Part shown: piece after piece, positions 9,970-18,714 of the stretch
How the letters are laid out: each line of letters opens with the position of its first letter
How positions within the stretch are numbered: position 1 is the first letter of the stretch
DNA from: Ktedonospora formicarum
GTDB taxonomy: Bacteria; Chloroflexota; Ktedonobacteria; Ktedonobacterales; Ktedonobacteraceae
Length of the DNA: 64,000 bases
Direction: 5' to 3'
Assembly (NCBI RefSeq): GCF_016587355.1
Contig: NZ_BNJF01000001.1
Coordinates: forward strand, 3,811,721 to 3,875,720
The notes under the pieces: generated by a model
Databases searched by the model: none
What the model was told of the DNA's origin: nothing
The model's input: only the letters and a program-made list of their open reading frames with translations
Made by a program: the position numbers and the translations under genes

Positions 9970-10259
9970 GCACATGATGAAACACGTTGCATGTATTTTG
10001 TTGAAGTTTCAACGTAAGCTCATAAAACCTATCTGATGAGAAATGCTGTGAGATGGCTCTGGAAGCGGTACTATTGAATTTTGATGAATTTTGGAAAGTC
10101 GTAAAAAGTCGTTTGGTGGGATGCAACATAGTGTCGCAAAAGTGTCTACCAGCTCATACTTTTTGCCCTTTTAATCTCTACTATAAACACACATAAAGCG
10201 GCTCTGGTAGTGGTACGAGGGGATGTATAGTTGTGAGTTGATATTTTGCTGCTCCTTAT

Positions 10260-10309
10260 ATGGGAAAGATAAAAGCGAATGAATATGGGAAAGATAAAAG
10301 CGAATGAAT
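10260..10309. repeat. Perfect tandem 25-bp duplication
   Basis: Two head-to-tail copies of a 25-bp unit beginning ATGGGAAAGATAAAAGCG, at 10260-10284 and 10285-10309, with no gap. Confidence 0.9.
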
Positions 10310-10876: not shown

Positions 10877-11092
10877 GGGGCAAAGCCCCTTACCTCCTTA
10901 TTAGTTATTTATTAGTTTATTTATTGTCTAAATATCTCGTGCTGCTGTACGGACAAGTGCGTTCATTCTACTGACATTAGAGAGAGCAGCGTTCATCCTA
11001 TTGAACATCGACGTTCATTTCAATGAACACCACTGTTCATTCTACTGAACATGTTCATTTTATTGAACACCCTGCGTTCATTTGATTGAACA
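10877..11092. repeat. Right arm of long inverted repeat with six 18-bp palindromes
   Basis: This is the inverted partner of 5841-6033. From the inside out it has a GGGGC-AAA-GCCCC hairpin (10877-10889), an AT-rich stretch with TTTATTGTCTAAA, the GCTGCTGTACGGACAAG element (10940-10956), then palindromes YGTTCA-N6-TGAACA starting at 10960 (degenerate right half), 10990, 11012, 11034, 11052 and 11075. It points toward the structured leader and membrane-protein gene at 11390, just as the left arm points toward the membrane protein at 5763. Confidence 0.9.
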
Positions 11093-11167
11093 TAGACAAA
11101 GTAATATAGTGAGTTTTTGTTGATAATGCAAAATTGGTTGAAAAAGTGGGGCAAACTTCGACAAATA

Positions 11168-12322: not shown

Positions 12323-12534
12323 AGCGTACACCTGATGACGTGAAGCAGCTTCTCCTGGCCTACCTGGACGCTGGCGAAAGCTGGCCTGAAGAGGTGAATA
12401 CGGAGCTTCGGAAGTATTATCGGCGTACCTACCTCAATCCTAGAGGAAGTAAGCATACTCTATACCTGGCCTGGAGGCAGGAATGGGAAGAGTCACATGG
12501 AATCACCTACTTGCCTAATAAGCGAGTGAACTAA
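12250..12534 (+). CDS. Candidate -1 frameshift extension of the membrane protein
   Basis: The run A-AAA-AAA at 12250-12256 is a classic -1 slippery heptamer in register with the membrane-protein frame. From it the -1 frame is open with no stop through 12534, adding a domain with DDVKQLLLAYLDAGESW and LRKYYRRTYLNPRGSKH. The only internal start is GTG 12340, without a ribosome site. The added part is basic and helical and could bind nucleic acid. Frameshifting is inferred; a separate weakly translated gene from 12340 is the alternative. Confidence 0.5.
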   Translation, partial: KKREGSLEATAPTGEPEQTGANRVKRTPDDVKQLLLAYLDAGESWPEEVNTELRKYYRRTYLNPRGSKHTLYLAWRQEWEESHGITYLPNKRVN

Positions 12535-12540
12535 GAATGC

Positions 12541-12598
12541 TGACCTGAGCATGTCGTTAAACTGCTCCGTCGAATAGTGGGAGACGTTAAACTACCCC
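12541..12598 (+). repeat. Dispersed direct repeat R1 (with partial second copy)
   Basis: GACCTGAGCAT then GTCGTTAAACTGCTCC (12542-12568), with a shortened copy ACGTTAAACTACCCC (12584-12598). It belongs to a family with R2 (13078), R3 (13592) and R4 (16725), all in the same orientation. Confidence 0.8.
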
Positions 12599-12602
12599 GT
12601 AA

Positions 12603-12673
12603 TGTGGGTTGGTGCAACGGTAGCACAGCGGCCTCATAAGTCGCAAATTAGGGTTCGATTCCCTGATCCGCAA
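12603..12673 (+). tRNA. tRNA-Met-type (anticodon CAT)
   Basis: The acceptor TGTGGGT pairs with ATCCGCA, including two G-U pairs. The anticodon arm is GCGGC-CTCATAA-GTCGC with CAT at 12635-12637. The T arm is TAGGG-TTCGATT-CCCTG. The D arm is short. It is plausibly an elongator or initiator Met tRNA, or an Ile2 tRNA if the C is modified. No CCA is encoded. It is the first unit of a phage tRNA-like cluster. Confidence 0.75.
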
Positions 12674-12712
12674 TGGTGGTTTGTCAGTCTCCACATGAAA
12701 TAGGATGGACTA

Positions 12713-12796
12713 CTCACTGTGCCAGAGTCCGGCCTAATGGGCGTACCGAGAGTAGGTACGAGCGTGAGTACGAGGGTTCGAATCCCTCCAGTGAGT
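12713..12796 (+). tRNA. Class II tRNA, probably Leu (GAG)
   Basis: The perfect 7-bp acceptor is CTCACTG/CAGTGAG. A D arm CCA...TGG holds the conserved GG. The anticodon stem is GTACC/GGTAC with loop GAGAGTA. The variable region is long and the T arm GAGGG-TTCGAAT-CCCTC is perfect. The long variable arm fits a Leu, Ser or Tyr tRNA, and the loop position reads GAG (Leu). Position 33 is A, not the usual U, so activity is uncertain. Confidence 0.6.
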
Positions 12797-12797
12797 A

Positions 12798-12898
12798 TAG
12801 CAGCGTACCAGAGTGGACAAATGGGCGAGAGAGCACTTGCGTTTTGCGCGAGCAGCACTTGTGCGAAAGCTACGCAGGTTCGAATCCTGCCCTGTTAG
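12798..12898 (+). tRNA. Degenerate tRNA-like element
   Basis: The T arm GCAGG-TTCGAAT-CCTGC is perfect and an acceptor TAGCAGC/CCTGTTA is nearly complete (one mismatch, one G-U). The middle is 20-30 nt too long for a normal tRNA. CTTGC-GTTTTGC-GCGAG could be an anticodon arm reading TTT. It may be a pseudo-tRNA or an insertion-bearing copy. Confidence 0.4.
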
Positions 12899-13020
12899 GC
12901 ATAGCTTCGGGAACGATGGATGCCGAGCGGTACCTGCTCCCTTTCCGCGATATAAATGTGGGGGCTTTTCCTGGGCATGAAAGCAATAAAACTGCCCGGC
13001 ATGGCGGTAAAGTGCCTCCG

Positions 13021-13077
13021 GTGAGAACGCTGGCGAGGTGGTCCAGAGGTGTGTGGTTCGACTCCACTTGCTGCAAT
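13021..13077 (+). tRNA. tRNA remnant with T-arm core only
   Basis: GTGG-TTCGACT-CCAC (13053-13067) is a T-arm core followed by an acceptor-like TTGCTGCA. No convincing anticodon or 5' acceptor is found. It closes the tRNA-like cluster just before repeat R2. Confidence 0.3.
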
Positions 13078-13112
13078 TGACCTGGGTATAGTCGTTAAAC
13101 TGCCCTTCCCCC
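13078..13112 (+). repeat. Dispersed direct repeat R2
   Basis: GACCTGGGTATA then GTCGTTAAACTGCCC and a run of C. It lies between the tRNA cluster and the small membrane-protein gene. Confidence 0.85.
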
Positions 13113-13119
13113 ATAAAAA

Positions 13120-13152
13120 GAAAGGCCAGCCGGAGTGGCTGACCCTTCCTGA
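13120..13152 (-). terminator. Terminator of small membrane-protein gene
   Basis: On the minus strand, GTCAGCC-ACTCC-GGCTGGC forms a stem followed by TTTCTTTTT, a strong intrinsic terminator placed just after the stop at 13158. Confidence 0.75.
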
Positions 13153-13157
13153 TCTAT

Positions 13158-13505
13158 TCAATCTGCTTTGCTCTTGGTTTTCCGTGGGAGATGGTTTGCT
13201 ATTGCTTTCACACCATCCACTCCACAGTATGCCGCGATTATCCCCGCAATCAACACAAAAGCGTCTGGACTTTTCAAAAGAACGGCAAGTGTAAATCCAC
13301 CAATAAGCACAAGCAACATCAATATTGCTTTGAAGTCTTGTGGTAGGCATCGATACACTGCATCTTTGAGCGCCAGATCCTTCTTGCGTGCCTCCTCAAT
13401 TGCGGGAACAGCCAATTGGCTGATCAGTGCTTGCGATTCAGAGCGCGTTTTCGACCTCGTGCTCTTATCGCTGTTTCCATTTCTAGAAATCATGATTTTA
13501 CTCAT
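13158..13505 (-). CDS. Small two-helix membrane protein
   Basis: A 115-residue protein with a basic hydrophilic N-terminus, then two membrane helices (FKAILMLLVLIGGFTLAVLL and AFVLIAGIIAAYCGVDGV) and a Lys/Arg-rich end. Function is unknown. It lies alone between repeats R2 and R3, on the strand opposite to the late genes, as an independent cargo unit. The ATG at 13505 has a tight GGGAAG site; an in-frame ATG at 13493 is possible. It has its own terminator. Confidence 0.65.
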   Translation of the reverse strand: MSKIMISRNGNSDKSTRSKTRSESQALISQLAVPAIEEARKKDLALKDAVYRCLPQDFKAILMLLVLIGGFTLAVLLKSPDAFVLIAGIIAAYCGVDGVKAIANHLPRKTKSKAD

Positions 13506-13591
13506 CTTCCCAGAAAGGACCTAAAAATGTACCAAAGTGGAAATATATTAACACATCCAGATATATAATGCACCAAACAAGCTTTATTATT

Positions 13592-13625
13592 TAACCTGGG
13601 TATGTCGGTAAACTGCCTTTTCCCC
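13592..13625 (+). repeat. Dispersed direct repeat R3
   Basis: AACCTGGGTAT then GTCGGTAAACTGCC and TTTTCCCC. It separates the small membrane protein from the restriction-modification unit. Confidence 0.85.
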
Positions 13626-13649
13626 TTGCTCTGTAGTTCAGACTAGTCC

Positions 13650-13692
13650 TGCGCCTTTCTTGCTACCCTAGTTCGAGTTCAAGCGCAGGAGT
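13650..13692. other. Inverted repeat after restriction gene, with T-loop-like core
   Basis: TCCTGCGC and GCGCAGGA enclose CTAGTTCGAGTT, which resembles a tRNA T loop. It lies immediately 3' of the endonuclease gene. It could be a degenerate tRNA or a weak terminator without a U run. Confidence 0.4.
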
Positions 13693-13695
13693 CAC

Positions 13696-14838
13696 TCAGA
13701 CGTTCTCGTCTTCCTCAAGCTCTTCCACAGTCTGTTCTAACATGTGTATATATGGACCCAAGAACTTATCTCCGTTGAAATGGATGAGATGGTCGGGGGC
13801 GTCAGCAATCCAGACCTCAGTTTCCCACGCTATATTTTGCACCCATTTACGGAATGTTACCCGATCCAAAAAGGCTGTAATATAAACAATATCTGCTTTA
13901 CAGTCTTTTGTAAGCTGCTTCAGCTCAAGCAAGCGATTTTCCGATATTGGACCAGAACTGTGAACAGCCTCGATTAGGTATAGCCATTTCTTTGCCTCAG
14001 AATAAGCGACAATATCGGGCAGTTCCCCGTGACTTAACTCAAAAAAATTCAACTCCTTAAGCTTTTCGGTTTTCATGACTTGAAACTTATTCGCTGTATC
14101 ACCAATATACAGCACATCCGCTCCATAACCGTATCTAGGCAGCAGTTTTTGAATGACAGCTATTTGAAGTTGATTATGTTCACCAGGAGAGAGATCCATT
14201 TCAAATCCATCTGGCAAGGTTACGGGGAGTAGTTCCATCTGTCTAGTCGTATCTAGTCTTTCGGCGGCTGTTGTAATTTTTGCCGTTGCCTCTCGTAATC
14301 TCTCTTGCCATCCATCTATGCCTATACCCCGCAAACTTTCTGTAAGTATAGGGTTGATAGCATAGCCACGGCTTGGATCATTTCTTGCAAGTTGTTCATT
14401 TGTTCTTACGACGATACTGCCGATAATTGGTAATTTTAAGTCTGCTCTTCTAATATCGTCATAGGAGCCGGGGGAAATTTTCTCTTCAAAATATTCATTG
14501 ATGTACCTGATGATGTCACGGGTCTTCATATTTACACCATCATTTAAATCTTTAGTACCTCCCCACCCGCTAATTGTATTGACCTGAGCTGTCGCCAAGA
14601 CAGCCATCGCAGTCCTTTCCATCTTTCGCCAGCTACTATTCCCAAATGGAATACCAAGGATAGTCAATGCCTCTATAGCCTCAGTGATTAGGTGCTGTAT
14701 CTCTTCTTTTTTCGCTTTAAATTCCTTTGTCGGCTCTACCAACTTATTTCTCCTATCACGCTCAATTGGAGCCGTTGTTTCTCCGAACAAACTCGTTTGA
14801 ACCAAAGAGTCATGAGATATGTGTTTCTTTGAGGCCAT
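13696..14838 (-). CDS. BsuBI/PstI-type restriction endonuclease
   Basis: A 380-residue protein starting at 14838, chosen because GGAGAG lies 6 bases upstream. The N-terminal ~200 residues are helical (WRKMERTAMAVLATAQVN region) and resemble the DNA-binding part of this family. The C-terminal part has GELPDIVAYSEAKKWLYLIE, EAVHSSGPISENRL and AFLDRVTFRKWV, typical of BsuBI/PstI nucleases with a PD-(D/E)XK-like site (D in PDIVAY, E in LIEAV). It probably cuts unmethylated DNA. It lies 19 bases downstream of a C5 methyltransferase. The recognition site cannot be read from sequence; known relatives cut CTGCAG but usually pair with adenine methylases. Confidence 0.85.
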   Translation of the reverse strand: MASKKHISHDSLVQTSLFGETTAPIERDRRNKLVEPTKEFKAKKEEIQHLITEAIEALTILGIPFGNSSWRKMERTAMAVLATAQVNTISGWGGTKDLNDGVNMKTRDIIRYINEYFEEKISPGSYDDIRRADLKLPIIGSIVVRTNEQLARNDPSRGYAINPILTESLRGIGIDGWQERLREATAKITTAAERLDTTRQMELLPVTLPDGFEMDLSPGEHNQLQIAVIQKLLPRYGYGADVLYIGDTANKFQVMKTEKLKELNFFELSHGELPDIVAYSEAKKWLYLIEAVHSSGPISENRLLELKQLTKDCKADIVYITAFLDRVTFRKWVQNIAWETEVWIADAPDHLIHFNGDKFLGPYIHMLEQTVEELEEDENV

Positions 14839-14856
14839 TGTTCTCTCCAAGCACAT

Positions 14857-15864
14857 TCATTCGATTAGGTTCAATTGAACCAATGGTGCATGAGGTGTTT
14901 GATCCTCAACATCAGTTTTATCCAGGTAATTGATGAAGCTTTGAGCCAACTCATAGGCAAATAGTGGCGAAACTGCGTTCCCAATTTGATTAAACTGGCT
15001 CGTTTCAGAACCAACAAACTCGAACCAATCAGGAAAACTCTGCAATCTCGTAGCTTCACGAACGGTTAGCTGCCTACGTCGGCCATCTGCTAGTTTTACC
15101 CGATGCATATCGCTTGTGGAACCAGCCAGATTACGGCAAGTTAAAGTTCTCGCTGGCCTATCTAAATGTAGGTCACGTGGCGTAACGCAATGAGAAGCAG
15201 CCTCGTATATGGCGATATATTTGTCCATATTTGGTGTCAGGAAGCGAGGATTAGCCACTTCTTGGTTTATGAGATCACCAACAGCCTCACCAGCAGTACG
15301 GACCACCTTACTACGCTTTGGAAGTTGGTAACGGTTCTCACGTACTCCCACTACTACGAGACGTTCACGATTTTGAGGAACGCCGTAATGGGAAGCATTT
15401 AATAACTGGCATGTGACATGATACCCAAGGCTTCTGAGTTGATCTAATACTTCATGCAAATAAGATTTATTTTTGTACATCAAGCCCCGGACATTTTCAA
15501 ACATCCAAATTTCAGGTTGGACCTTTTTTATAGCTGCTATAAATGCTGGAAACCCATTGCGCGTATCACTTAATCCATGCTGCCGCCCACGAACGCTAAA
15601 TGGCTGGCATGGTGGGCCACCAATAACAATATCTACTTTTGGATAATCAGTATCGGCAGTGAGTAGTCGTTTTTCTGCTTGACCAAATAAATTCTTGGAA
15701 TAAGTAGCAACGCAATCCTCATCCATTTCAAAGCCAAGCGTTTCAAATCCAGCAGCTTCAAAACCCAACGCCAACCCGCCAGCACCTGAAAATAGATCAA
15801 GGACCAATTCTTCTCTAGCCTTTCGCGGCTGAAGCAAGGAGTTAATATGTTCTACATAGCTCAT
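14857..15864 (-). CDS. DNA (cytosine-5) methyltransferase
   Basis: A 335-residue enzyme that methylates C5 of cytosine to protect phage and host DNA from the neighbouring nuclease. Motif I is LDLFSGAGGLALGFEAAGF, motif IV GGPPCQPFS with the catalytic Cys, motif VI MFENVRG, motif VIII QNRERLVVVG, and motif X QIGNAVSPLFAYELA. The target-recognition region (about residues 185-270) is short. It lies directly upstream of the BsuBI/PstI-type nuclease on the same strand. Base composition is more A/T-rich than the flanking late genes, suggesting transfer as a unit. Confidence 0.92.
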   Translation of the reverse strand: MSYVEHINSLLQPRKAREELVLDLFSGAGGLALGFEAAGFETLGFEMDEDCVATYSKNLFGQAEKRLLTADTDYPKVDIVIGGPPCQPFSVRGRQHGLSDTRNGFPAFIAAIKKVQPEIWMFENVRGLMYKNKSYLHEVLDQLRSLGYHVTCQLLNASHYGVPQNRERLVVVGVRENRYQLPKRSKVVRTAGEAVGDLINQEVANPRFLTPNMDKYIAIYEAASHCVTPRDLHLDRPARTLTCRNLAGSTSDMHRVKLADGRRRQLTVREATRLQSFPDWFEFVGSETSQFNQIGNAVSPLFAYELAQSFINYLDKTDVEDQTPHAPLVQLNLIE

Positions 15865-15979
15865 AGGTCCATTTTACCAGCCACATGTCGGTATAGGCAA
15901 CTGAGACTTCGTATTTGTGTATTTCCGGCTATTTCCTTACTTAAGTACCCTGTCTTCACCCTTCTTCGGTAGGACATCG

Positions 15980-16198
15980 CTATTTCCCCTCCTCTTCCTC
16001 ATAATCTTCCAACAACTCAGTCGTCTTTACCCCTAATGCCTTTGCCACGCGATTGAGTGTGTCTAGAGACACGTCATGATACGGATTCTTGACCATTTTT
16101 TGAACCGTATTATAGGCCATCTCGGCCCGCCTGGATAGATCAGTTGGATTCAGCCCCTTCTCTTCAAGGACTTTATCGACTCGCAAGCGTGCAGGCAT
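15980..16198 (-). CDS. Small HTH regulator, controller-protein-like
   Basis: A 72-residue XRE protein: RVDKVLEEKGLNPTDLSRRAE, then AYNTVQKMVKNPYHDVSLDT and LNRVAKALGVKTTELLED. Size, fold and place (upstream of the methyltransferase, same strand) fit the controller (C) proteins that time restriction-modification expression. It has a good promoter of its own (TTGTGC, 17 bp, TATAGT). A divergent 28-bp palindrome at 16328 and an ACTTGAG word near its start are candidate targets. The controller role is inferred. Confidence 0.72.
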   Translation of the reverse strand: MPARLRVDKVLEEKGLNPTDLSRRAEMAYNTVQKMVKNPYHDVSLDTLNRVAKALGVKTTELLEDYEEEEGK

Positions 16199-16227
16199 TT
16201 CATCACTCCCCCTCTTAGTCTCAAGTA

Positions 16228-16256
16228 ACTATACCAATGAGGTGGCGTTAGCACAA
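16228..16256 (-). promoter_or_regulatory. Promoter of the small HTH regulator
   Basis: On the minus strand, TTGTGC (16251-16256), 17 bp and TATAGT (16228-16233). The word CTCAAGT (plus strand 16220-16226) sits at the expected start point and also occurs in the big palindrome at 16328. Confidence 0.65.
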
Positions 16257-16295
16257 GATTACTATACTGCCGTTACTGAAATACATGCAGTGTAA

Positions 16296-16324
16296 TTGAA
16301 GCTCTCAAATTCCTATGGTATAAT
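16296..16324 (+). promoter_or_regulatory. Promoter of the 114-residue gene
   Basis: TTGAAG (16296-16301), 17-bp spacer, TATAAT (16319-16324) with an upstream TGG giving an extended -10. Transcription would start inside the adjacent palindrome. Confidence 0.75.
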
Positions 16325-16327
16325 CAA

Positions 16328-16355
16328 ATCACTTGAGTGACGTCACTCAAGTGAT
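16328..16355. promoter_or_regulatory. Perfect 28-bp palindrome at a transcription start
   Basis: ATCACTTGAGTGAC joined to its exact reverse complement, with TGACGTCA at the centre. It lies 3 bases after the -10 box and before the ribosome site. It may be an operator, probably for the divergent HTH protein, or a 5' mRNA hairpin that hides or protects the leader. Confidence 0.85.
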
Positions 16356-16372
16356 GAATGGGAGGATACCTC

Positions 16373-16717
16373 ATGGCAGAGGGAGTGATAATCATGGGAG
16401 AGAAAGAGAAAGTTATACATGTAGCGAGGCTCATTAGAAGCAAGGTTATTGTGTCGTTTCTCGCTGTAAATGGGTGCCTCGTAACACATAAAGGTGGTAA
16501 ATCGACCGTTGTGTACCCTAAAGATGCCGAGTGGATATTACAGCGCGAAGACGACGAGATGAGTATGAGCAACGTGAAGTTTGTATCTGGTCAGCATTGC
16601 GTTGAGTTTCACCACAAAGAGAAAGATACCTATGAGGTCTGGCTAGATGCTGTCACCTTCTATACCTACCAGGACGAAATGTTTCCTGAAGTCAGTGGTA
16701 GAAATCTCTGGTACTAA
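16373..16717 (+). CDS. Hypothetical protein under palindrome control
   Basis: A 114-residue protein. I chose ATG 16373 because GGGAGG lies 7 bases upstream. It is beta-rich (KVIVSFLAVNGCLVTHKGGK, then VSGQHCVEFHH) with a short aromatic end. No family recognised. It is divergent from the controller-like gene and sits in the same R3-R4 unit as the restriction-modification genes, so it may be an accessory or anti-restriction component; this is only positional inference. Confidence 0.6.
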   Translation: MAEGVIIMGEKEKVIHVARLIRSKVIVSFLAVNGCLVTHKGGKSTVVYPKDAEWILQREDDEMSMSNVKFVSGQHCVEFHHKEKDTYEVWLDAVTFYTYQDEMFPEVSGRNLWY

Positions 16718-16724
16718 TCACATA

Positions 16725-16761
16725 TGACCTAGGGTATTGTCGTTAAACTGCCCTTTCCTCC
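16725..16761 (+). repeat. Dispersed direct repeat R4
   Basis: GACCTAGGGTATT then GTCGTTAAACTGCCC and TTTCCTCC. It closes the restriction-modification unit and lies before the receiver-like gene. Confidence 0.85.
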
Positions 16762-17277: not shown

Positions 17278-18714
17278 ATGCCCCGACATAGAGTGTCCAT
17301 CTCAGCCCAAGAGGTGACGGATGACCCCGTAGCCTTCTGTCGTGCCTTCCTCACGAAGCCAAACGGTGAGCCATTAGAGCCACATGCAGGCCAGATCGAG
17401 CTTCTGAGGCACGTCAAACCCCTTACCGTATGCTGCTGCGGTCGCCAATGGGGCAAATCTGTCGCCATGAGCATCTATGCCACATGGTTCGCGACTACAC
17501 ACTCCAATCGGCAGGTGTTTATCATTGCGCCAACCCTGGACCAGTCGAGGATTATTTTCAATGAGATCGCATCCCACTTCCGCACAGGACCGCTTGCCAG
17601 CCTTCTCGAAGGTAAAATTAATGAGTACCCCTTTCCTCGTATCAAGCTCGCCAACGGGACCGAGATACATGGGCGTGGGGCGAACAGTCCACAGTTCTTA
17701 CGCGGCAAAAAGTGTCACCTTGCTATTGTTGATGAAGCTGCATTTTGCAAGGACACAACACTGACCGATGTGGTCGAGCCATTCATGACTGTCACAGGCC
17801 AGGAGAAGGACTCTGGCATCATCTTCATCTCTACCCCCTTCGGCCTGGGAGCCTTCAAAGACTACTATGATGCCGCAGAGGTGGATGATACGGACACGAT
17901 GGTTCGGTTCCATTTCCCAAGCAGCAGCAACCCGCATGCTGATCCGCGTTTCTTAGAGCGAGTGAAAAAACGCTATGGCGAGGAGAGCATGACATGGCGA
18001 ACGGAGTACCTCGCTGAGTTTGTGGACGATGATCTGGCGGTCTTCCCGTCCAGCGTCATTCGTTGGGCTTACGAAAACTACCCCTACCTTGATAAAGATA
18101 CCGCACAACCCCTTTTCCCCTACTCTGCGGAAGAGAAACATCGTTATGTTCAGGGAGTTGACCTCGCGAACGTTCGTGACTGGTTTGTCTCAACTACCCT
18201 GGATGTTACCAATCCTACCCGCGTTCCACTGGTGAGTATGGTACGACTCCAGAAGCGAGGCTACACGGAGTACAAACGCATCATCCGTGAGCAACATACT
18301 ACCTATAATCGGGCTGAAACACTCATTGATGCTACCTCCCTTGGTGAGTCGGTAGTTGAAGACCTGCAAGACATCACGGCTGAAGGTTACAAATTTAGTA
18401 ACCAGAGTAAGTACGAGATCGTGCAGGAGCTTTCCCGCATGATGGCCGAGCGCCGACTCCTCATTCCTTACAATAGGGACATTATCTCGGAGCTTCAGAA
18501 CTTCACCTATGAGTTCACGGCCAATAAAAACCTCCGCATGGAAGCCAAAAAGGGCCACGATGACATTGTGATGTCCCTCGCCCTGGCGGCTCACCTTGCA
18601 CTTATCCCCCGGCGATTGGGTCTTATGATAGGCGTCAACTTCTCCAAGATTGCGCCAACAGCACAACCTGTGACAGGTGATCCCTTCGCCGACCTCTTCA
18701 AACTTGACGACTGA
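17278..18714 (+). CDS. terL: Terminase large subunit
   Basis: This is the packaging motor ATPase and nuclease. Walker A is GRQWGKS (residues 55-61) and Walker B is LAIVDEA (148-154). The C-terminal RNase H-like nuclease has GVDLANVRDW (metal-binding Asp) and GHDDIVMSLALA. At 478 residues it is a normal length. It opens the plus-strand late operon. No small terminase subunit is adjacent, which is unusual; a candidate may lie at 3383 or outside the window. Confidence 0.93.
   Translation: MPRHRVSISAQEVTDDPVAFCRAFLTKPNGEPLEPHAGQIELLRHVKPLTVCCCGRQWGKSVAMSIYATWFATTHSNRQVFIIAPTLDQSRIIFNEIASHFRTGPLASLLEGKINEYPFPRIKLANGTEIHGRGANSPQFLRGKKCHLAIVDEAAFCKDTTLTDVVEPFMTVTGQEKDSGIIFISTPFGLGAFKDYYDAAEVDDTDTMVRFHFPSSSNPHADPRFLERVKKRYGEESMTWRTEYLAEFVDDDLAVFPSSVIRWAYENYPYLDKDTAQPLFPYSAEEKHRYVQGVDLANVRDWFVSTTLDVTNPTRVPLVSMVRLQKRGYTEYKRIIREQHTTYNRAETLIDATSLGESVVEDLQDITAEGYKFSNQSKYEIVQELSRMMAERRLLIPYNRDIISELQNFTYEFTANKNLRMEAKKGHDDIVMSLALAAHLALIPRRLGLMIGVNFSKIAPTAQPVTGDPFADLFKLDD

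Follow-up and report, generated by a model that had tools for sequence, protein, structure and literature searches.

What marks the boundaries between the cargo units that precede the head genes in a prophage of Ktedonospora formicarum? The stretch analysed here, called the window, comprises 64,000 nucleotides (nt) of a 10.7-Mb genome in 15 contigs and holds a prophage whose terminase, portal and other head genes start at 17.3 kb. Upstream of them a short repeat (R1 to R4) recurs around a tRNA cluster, a small protein gene and a restriction-modification (R-M) unit, and the preliminary description had offered two explanations for it: that recombination at the repeats swaps cargo cassettes, or that a common phage RNA site lies between units. 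The second is well borne out by a covarying pseudoknot that unrelated phages have, in sense orientation, at the edges of genes and tRNAs. R1 to R4 and two further copies are probably copies of one phage RNA element resembling coremin, an exonuclease-stalling RNA of plant and fungal viruses, and the function proposed for it, at a probability of roughly 0.6, is to act, like coremin, as a roadblock to exonucleases where transcript segments meet, which in this prophage means between the tRNAs, the moron cargo and the terminase.

The repeats in the window

The repeat starts reported previously (12541, 13078, 13592 and 16725) are correct, lie on one strand and exceed chance expectation by far. With up to three mismatches, GTCGTTAAACTGCCC has seven matches in the window against 1.0 expected, a number that none of 100 shuffles reaches; the matches of the four named copies are found at 12553, 13091, 13604 and 16739, all on the + strand, and each is preceded by a GACCTGGGTAT-like sequence. 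Taken alone and allowing two mismatches, GACCTGGGTAT gives 20 matches against 12.5 expected, barely above chance, so that the composite motif is what counts. The set of four was, however, incomplete, as two more copies are present at 12568-12598 (R1') and at 12964-12997, inside the tRNA cluster. Across the rest of the 10.7-Mb genome, outside the window prophage, clear further copies occur only in a second prophage.

Pseudoknot fold and covariation

The element is an H-type pseudoknot RNA of about 27 nt, Y-NNC-CU-NNNY-AN-GNN-G-UUAAACU-GNNN, composed of stem 1 (YNNC/GNNG), stem 2 (NNNY/GNNN) and the conserved loops C(U), AN and UUAAACU (loops 1, 2 and 3, respectively). The clue to its pairing was given by GAGC/GCTC in R1, GGGT/GCCC in R2 and R4, and GGAC/GTCC in the second prophage. 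A first pattern, GGGTAT-N0-2-GTCGTTAAACTGCC, recovered eight contigs with the element from IMG/VR, some related in sequence and several unrelated.

Covariation was assessed by searches in which one stem was fixed and the other left free, with the two roles then swapped. When stem 1 was left free, 107 of 110 sequences were fully complementary, comprising 14 different stems (shuffle mean 38.8, maximum 53). When stem 2 was left free, complementarity was found in 78 of 114 sequences with GAC/GTC as stem 1 (shuffle maximum 51) and in 138 of 159 with GTC/GAC (shuffle maximum 71); sliding the register abolished this pairing, leaving at most 7 complementary. In a set of 120 sequences, 92% of the cells were paired against 78.9% in shuffled data and double changes numbered 147 against 49, values as high as these being absent from 500 shuffles, and the covariation score was 0.485 compared with 0.25 in shuffles. 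The fourth pair of stem 1 was C-G or U-G in 110 of these 120. Both helices are maintained by compensatory changes and, since they interleave, the fold is an H-type pseudoknot. Minimum free-energy folding is uninformative here, because the method cannot form pseudoknots. A scanner for the pseudoknot counted 304 copies in the loci retrieved, compared with 6 when the sequences were reversed; as the motif itself had been used to retrieve the loci, 304 is no estimate of prevalence.

Within the window, R1 (12541..12567, +; U-GAC/CU/GAGC/AU/GUC-G/UUAAACU/GCUC) starts 7 nt past the stop codon of a 64-aa open reading frame (ORF) that ends at 12534. It is abutted by R1' (12568..12598, +; CGUC/GAAUAGU-GGG-A/GACG/UUAAACU/A-CCC), a tandem knot with a longer loop that ends 4 nt before tRNA-Met. 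The knot within the tRNA cluster (12964..12997, +) reads (GCU)UUUC/CU/GGGC/AU/GAAA(GC)/AAUAAAACU/GCCC, and R2 (13078..13105, +; U-GAC/CU/GGGU/AUA/GUC-G/UUAAACU/GCCC) follows directly past the last tRNA-like sequence. R4 (16725..16753, +; U-GAC/CUA/GGGU/AUU/GUC-G/UUAAACU/GCCC), like R1, begins about 7 nt past a stop codon. A 4-bp stem 1 is formed by R1, R2 and R4, and stem 2 covaries even among these copies (GAGC/GCUC in R1 versus GGGU/GCCC in R2 and R4). R3 (13592..13618, +; U-AAC/CU/GGGU/AU/GUC-G/GUAAACU/GCCU) carries a mismatch in stem 1 and is partly decayed. A pyrimidine-rich tail common to R2, R3 and R4 suggests that copies may have spread by duplication together with cargo.

Placement and occurrence in phages

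In unrelated phages the element lies on the sense strand, at the borders of genes and tRNAs. The orientations of the neighbouring genes relative to the knot (n = 176) were (+,+) in 135 cases, (-,+) in 22, (+,-) in 14 and (-,-) in 5; in this and all other placement counts, gene calls in unannotated contigs were mechanical. The knot lies 5-9 nt past a stop codon in 58 of 149 cases and 20-29 nt ahead of the next start in 49 of 157. A ribosome-binding site (RBS) and a start codon come soon after 137 of 304 knots, compared with 60 of 304 random stretches. All 20 tRNAs within 300 nt of knots are on the same strand, with none on the opposite one, and several are flush with the knot. The downstream gene mostly encodes a head scaffolding protein and the upstream gene is mostly one of head morphogenesis; tRNAs, SSB and PhoH are among the other neighbours. 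The identical slot, just ahead of the scaffold gene, is occupied in Staphylococcus phages 80 and B236, Lactobacillus phage KC5a and Anoxybacillus phage A403. The promoter annotated at this site in phage B236 is a BPROM prediction.

Hundreds of phage contigs contain the element. Annotated copies come from phages of Synechococcus, Nostoc, Mycobacterium, Arthrobacter, Paracoccus and Moorella and from one crAss-like phage, and BLAST places it at six positions in a Cylindrospermopsis virus. Three phage contigs (L200, L162 and L501) have about six knots within 8-14 kb or within one genome, many of them 6-12 nt past a stop codon; these serial knots represent repeated use between genes. Identity as a host element was rejected, the strict pattern being absent from 399 other Chloroflexota genomes (control 0). 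Among Bacilli, 4 of 201 genomes, the centre genome included, have the knot, a number underpowered for any link with RNase J. The long form of the knot was not found by BLAST with two variants in 5,426 Escherichia coli genomes. Seven E. coli genomes contain an intergenic coremin-like sequence with an altered spacer; in the one of the seven loci that was read (L497 4001-4022) the spacer is GUAAAACU, and a gene with an integrase domain starts about 100 nt downstream.

Relation to coremin

Coremin (xrRNA-C, where xrRNA stands for exonuclease-resistant RNA) stalls Xrn1 and is found in beny-, cucumo-, hypo- and chrysoviruses (PMC10520033, PMC5869530); its structure was unsolved as of 2023 (PMC10520033). 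Coremin (GUCCGAAGACGUUAAACUAC) and the phage element have in common the GUUAAACU spacer, a 4-bp stem of the GUC/GAC type and a loop that begins with Y and ends in A-D. Furthermore, the coremin core of about 20 nt is situated in untranslated and intergenic regions, and the phage element is likewise at gene boundaries. The GUUAAACU spacer is exact in R1, R2, R4 and R1'; its conservation elsewhere results from the selection of matches, because it was part of the search pattern, and natural variants are AUAAACU and GUAAACU. In R1', a 13-mer, GACGUUAAACUAC, is identical to that in the coremin of beet necrotic yellow vein virus (BNYVV). The loop of the long form begins with C in 100% of sequences (fixed in the pattern) and has U in second place in 90%, A in the penultimate position in 99% and D in the last in 86%.

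The two differ in several respects. The hosts of coremin are eukaryotic RNA viruses, whereas the phage element belongs to DNA phages of bacteria and would face another nuclease, and the form present in the window has, unlike coremin, a second stem of 4-5 bp between the loop and the downstream strand. Classical coremin stops the enzyme one nucleotide before hairpin hp1 and requires a second hairpin, hp2, close behind it (PMC10520033); in the phage element stem 2 may stand in for hp2. The loop rule as tested is YGAD or YGNNAD (PMC10520033); the loop of the long form departs from it, whereas that of the phage hexaloop form conforms to it.

The likeness to coremin led to a search of viral contigs for the classical hexaloop form, GTCCGNNADGACGTTAAACT, which is present in at least 120 contigs compared with 6 when the essential loop G is changed to A, the latter being about the number that we estimate for chance. 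About 85 distinct contexts occur among the matches listed, mainly with the loops CGAAAU and CGCAAU, both of which are Xrn1-resistant (PMC10520033). Hexaloop copies occupy the slots of the long form: ahead of a likely scaffold gene in Enterococcus phage SEsuP-1, 8 nt past a stop codon in prophage Lj928, beside tRNA-Glu in S-CRM01, and flush behind tRNA 3' ends in several contigs. The exact 20-nt BNYVV coremin sequence is found in IMG/VR contig L264 (4452-4471, - strand), and Pectobacterium phage PM1 (Chaseviridae, L268) has a long-stem knot with a mismatch as well as the hexaloop GACCGAAATGTCGTTAAACT. Two forms are thus found in phages, one like classical coremin and one a long-stem variant, and the window has the latter. 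As the long variant fails the G rule at loop position 2, it is not filed as classical coremin; it has fold elements in common with coremin, and by analogy a common function is probable.

Phages, bacteria and RNase J are not mentioned in the 2023 coremin paper (PMC10520033), and no publication joining the coremin motif with phages was found in a literature search whose coverage was incomplete for many journals, so that an earlier description is possible.

Proposed role

Taking into account the fold, the placement, the distribution, the coremin spacer and loop ends, the phage hexaloops in the same slots and the presence of RNase J in the host, the simplest mechanism would be a roadblock shielding the RNA that lies 3' of a cut. 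Once a polycistronic phage transcript has been cut, as may happen at tRNAs or through endonucleases, a 5'-to-3' exonuclease acting on the piece would be halted by the knot that immediately precedes the next unit. The candidate exonuclease in this host is RNase J, which is encoded in the genome (640 bits), and a flaviviral xrRNA stops bacterial RNase J1 in vitro (PMC5760640). The downstream segment, whether a tRNA, scaffold and capsid mRNA or, here, terminase mRNA, would survive with a structured 5' end. In the window, a + transcript, if it runs through, would cross the tRNA array toward the terminase, and tRNA processing would have to cut it; with knots ahead of the array, within it and behind it, and another following the last + ORF upstream of the terminase, each segment could be saved. 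In vivo the knot would block RNase J or some comparable enzyme and would set expression in this way.

A number of observations weigh against the roadblock. R2, R3 and R4 lie on the strand opposite to the R-M genes and the 115-aa cargo gene, and stem 1 of R3 would be AAC/GUC, with an A.C mismatch, so that this copy appears decayed. The long form in the window has U at loop position 2, in place of the G needed by coremin, about 14% of long forms have C at the last loop position, a change that kills the hexaloop, and no hp2 is evident by eye after R1 to R4. The 14 convergent placements are not much rarer than the 22 divergent ones, so that protection of downstream RNA may not be the sole role. 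Finally, a Vibrio phage and Chaseviridae infecting enterobacteria carry copies, of which those in the Chaseviridae are mismatched in stem 1 in 3 of 4 cases. To our knowledge, Vibrio and enterobacteria have no RNase J, so that RNase J would not be the only target.

If the roadblock is correct, xrRNAs, which the cited papers describe from eukaryotic RNA viruses only, would be a common tool of bacterial viruses as well. It would provide a mechanism for raising scaffold and capsid mRNA over its operon neighbours and would account for elements flush with phage tRNAs. Moreover, hundreds of natural sequences would then be available, and their covariation would show the pseudoknot pairing of a motif that had no solved structure as of 2023 (PMC10520033). 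A wider proposal, for which the odds appear evenly balanced, is that one small nuclease-blocking RNA fold serves both the RNA viruses of plants and fungi and the DNA phages of most bacterial phyla. Phages would have extended it to a true pseudoknot of two stems and would use it, once or many times per genome, as a standard mark at the borders of transcript segments that are first cut and then stabilised to different degrees.

Cargo units and alternative explanations

The cargo order given in the preliminary description, a tRNA cluster, a small protein and an R-M unit, agrees with ARAGORN and the family matches, with the exception of the small protein, which has none. The cluster comprises tRNA-Met (CAT; 12603..12673, +; ARAGORN and Rfam tRNA, 57 bits) and tRNA-Leu (GAG; 12712..12797, +; ARAGORN). 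Several tRNA-like sequences with T-arms, uncalled by ARAGORN, follow at 12806-13076 and are apparently degenerate tRNA genes. The first cargo protein, called a small membrane protein earlier, has 115 aa and no family match (13158..13505, -). The R-M unit consists of a BsuBI/PstI-type restriction endonuclease (13696..14856, -; PF06616, 1.6e-62) and a C5-cytosine DNA methyltransferase (14857..15864, -; PF00145, 8.6e-65), and a Cro/C1-type helix-turn-helix protein (15980..16198, -; PF13443, 1.8e-14) is likely its regulator. A 119-aa protein with no assigned function (16358..16717, +) has its stop codon 7 nt before R4, and the first core gene downstream is the terminase large subunit (17278..18714, +; PF03237; phrog_2, 9.2e-44). 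Farther upstream, about six imperfect palindromes, TGTTCATT-N2-ATTGAACA, precede the first + gene at 10959-11097 and likely form a repressor operator array; similar sequence recurs at several places in the related prophage L277. A 25-nt unit is perfectly duplicated in tandem at 10258-10307.

The comparison with L277 bears directly on cassette exchange, according to which homologous or site-specific recombination at the repeats, as DNA sites, moves cargo. Gene order is conserved up to the tRNA cluster and again starting with the response-regulator gene. The intervening cargo is different: a 530-aa protein (+), named as DNA-methyltransferase-like by reading its sequence, replaces the 115-aa protein and the R-M unit. 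The knots persist. R1' is 94% identical to a tRNA-flush copy in L277, and R3 with 10 further nt is 94% identical over 34 nt to the single L277 knot at 13746-13779, a pattern that insertion of a unit next to a repeat would leave. The turnover of cargo that had been suggested is thus real, and recombination at the repeats may occur as a side effect. The repeats themselves are nevertheless best explained as an RNA element: they are conserved by compensatory change instead of as a fixed DNA sequence, both stems of the knot in the tRNA cluster being changed in L277 (UUUC/GAAA to UCUC/GAGA and GGGC/GCCC to GGUC/GACC), and the motif also stands between core genes, for instance those for minor head protein and scaffold, at places without any exchange of cargo. 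A recombination site would be expected to have a DNA core independent of transcript sense and a cognate recombinase; the strand bias and the compensatory changes do not fit such a core, and the family matches of the window proteins, beyond which no search was aimed at recombinases, linked none to the repeat. A recombination or att-like site was accordingly rejected as the main function, and cassette exchange is very unlikely to be what the repeats are for. The second prophage of the same genome (L279, G000:C1:3077000-3096000) has a terminase 62% identical and tRNA-Glu, Pro, Asp and Asn; of its two knots, one lies 2 nt before tRNA-Pro and one after tRNA-Asn.

Other explanations keep the pseudoknot and give it another task. 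A translation insulator, in which the knot sits at the mRNA entry of a ribosome on the stop codon and blocks post-termination or scanning ribosomes, so that neighbours are translated independently, would agree with the tight distance of 5-9 nt past stop codons and with the block of scanning ribosomes by coremin in vitro (PMC10520033); it is unlikely, though worth considering, since the tRNA-flush copies and the divergent placements, with no upstream gene on the strand, are left unexplained. Rather less likely is a 3'-end element, with the knot capping the upstream mRNA and shielding its 3' terminus, either after RNase P has cut at a tRNA or where an operon ends. Distances of 1-6 nt between several copies and the 5' end of the tRNA that follows, together with the 14 convergent placements, would favour this, but the enrichment of an RBS and start close behind the knot and the hexaloop copies flush after tRNA 3' ends speak against it. 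So does the U-tract, defined as at least 5 T in the 8 nt after the knot, which follows just 79 of 303 knots; the same count shows that the element is not an intrinsic terminator, and no terminator was called at R1 to R4. The small H-type fold with conserved loops would suit a pseudoknot bound by a metabolite or protein, either a preQ1-like aptamer or the site of a phage RNA-binding protein; we place this last, as highly improbable, given that scaffold, tRNAs, SSB, PhoH and the other neighbours form no common regulated pathway, that many copies occur per genome and that coremin rules fit. A promoter was likewise rejected, with no sigma-70 match at R1 to R4.

Comparison with known systems

No known Rfam family matches at threshold over the knots. 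GP20-b (RF03003), which reportedly originated in a 2017 survey by Breaker and Weinberg, is like the knot a cis element, located upstream of phage GP20 scaffold genes, a position that holds for many relatives of the window copies and not for these copies themselves. In two phage loci (L151 3000-3068 and L051 981-1048) the GP20-b model gives a sub-threshold alignment that coincides exactly with the knot, shares its register and has a UAAAA loop; the scores are 20.5-21.9 bits against a gathering cut-off of 36.2 bits, and the Rfam model search gave no match for the window copies. The GP20-b consensus can be read as the same type of pseudoknot, with the first stem left unpaired in Rfam, although its stem sequences differ and it has an extra downstream hairpin.

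The preQ1-I riboswitch is also a small H-type pseudoknot with an A-containing third loop, but it has another consensus and gene context, and no Rfam match was obtained. As regards integron attC sites, GTTAAAC fits the GTTRRRY core; in contrast to attC, no inverted partner core and no cassette array were seen at the repeats, and the conserved structure here is a pseudoknot with other pairing. The xrRNAs of flaviviruses and of tombus- and poleroviruses are larger, form a ring around the 5' end and show no noted sequence likeness to the knot; what they have in common with the role proposed here is a fold-based block of 5'-3' exonucleases.

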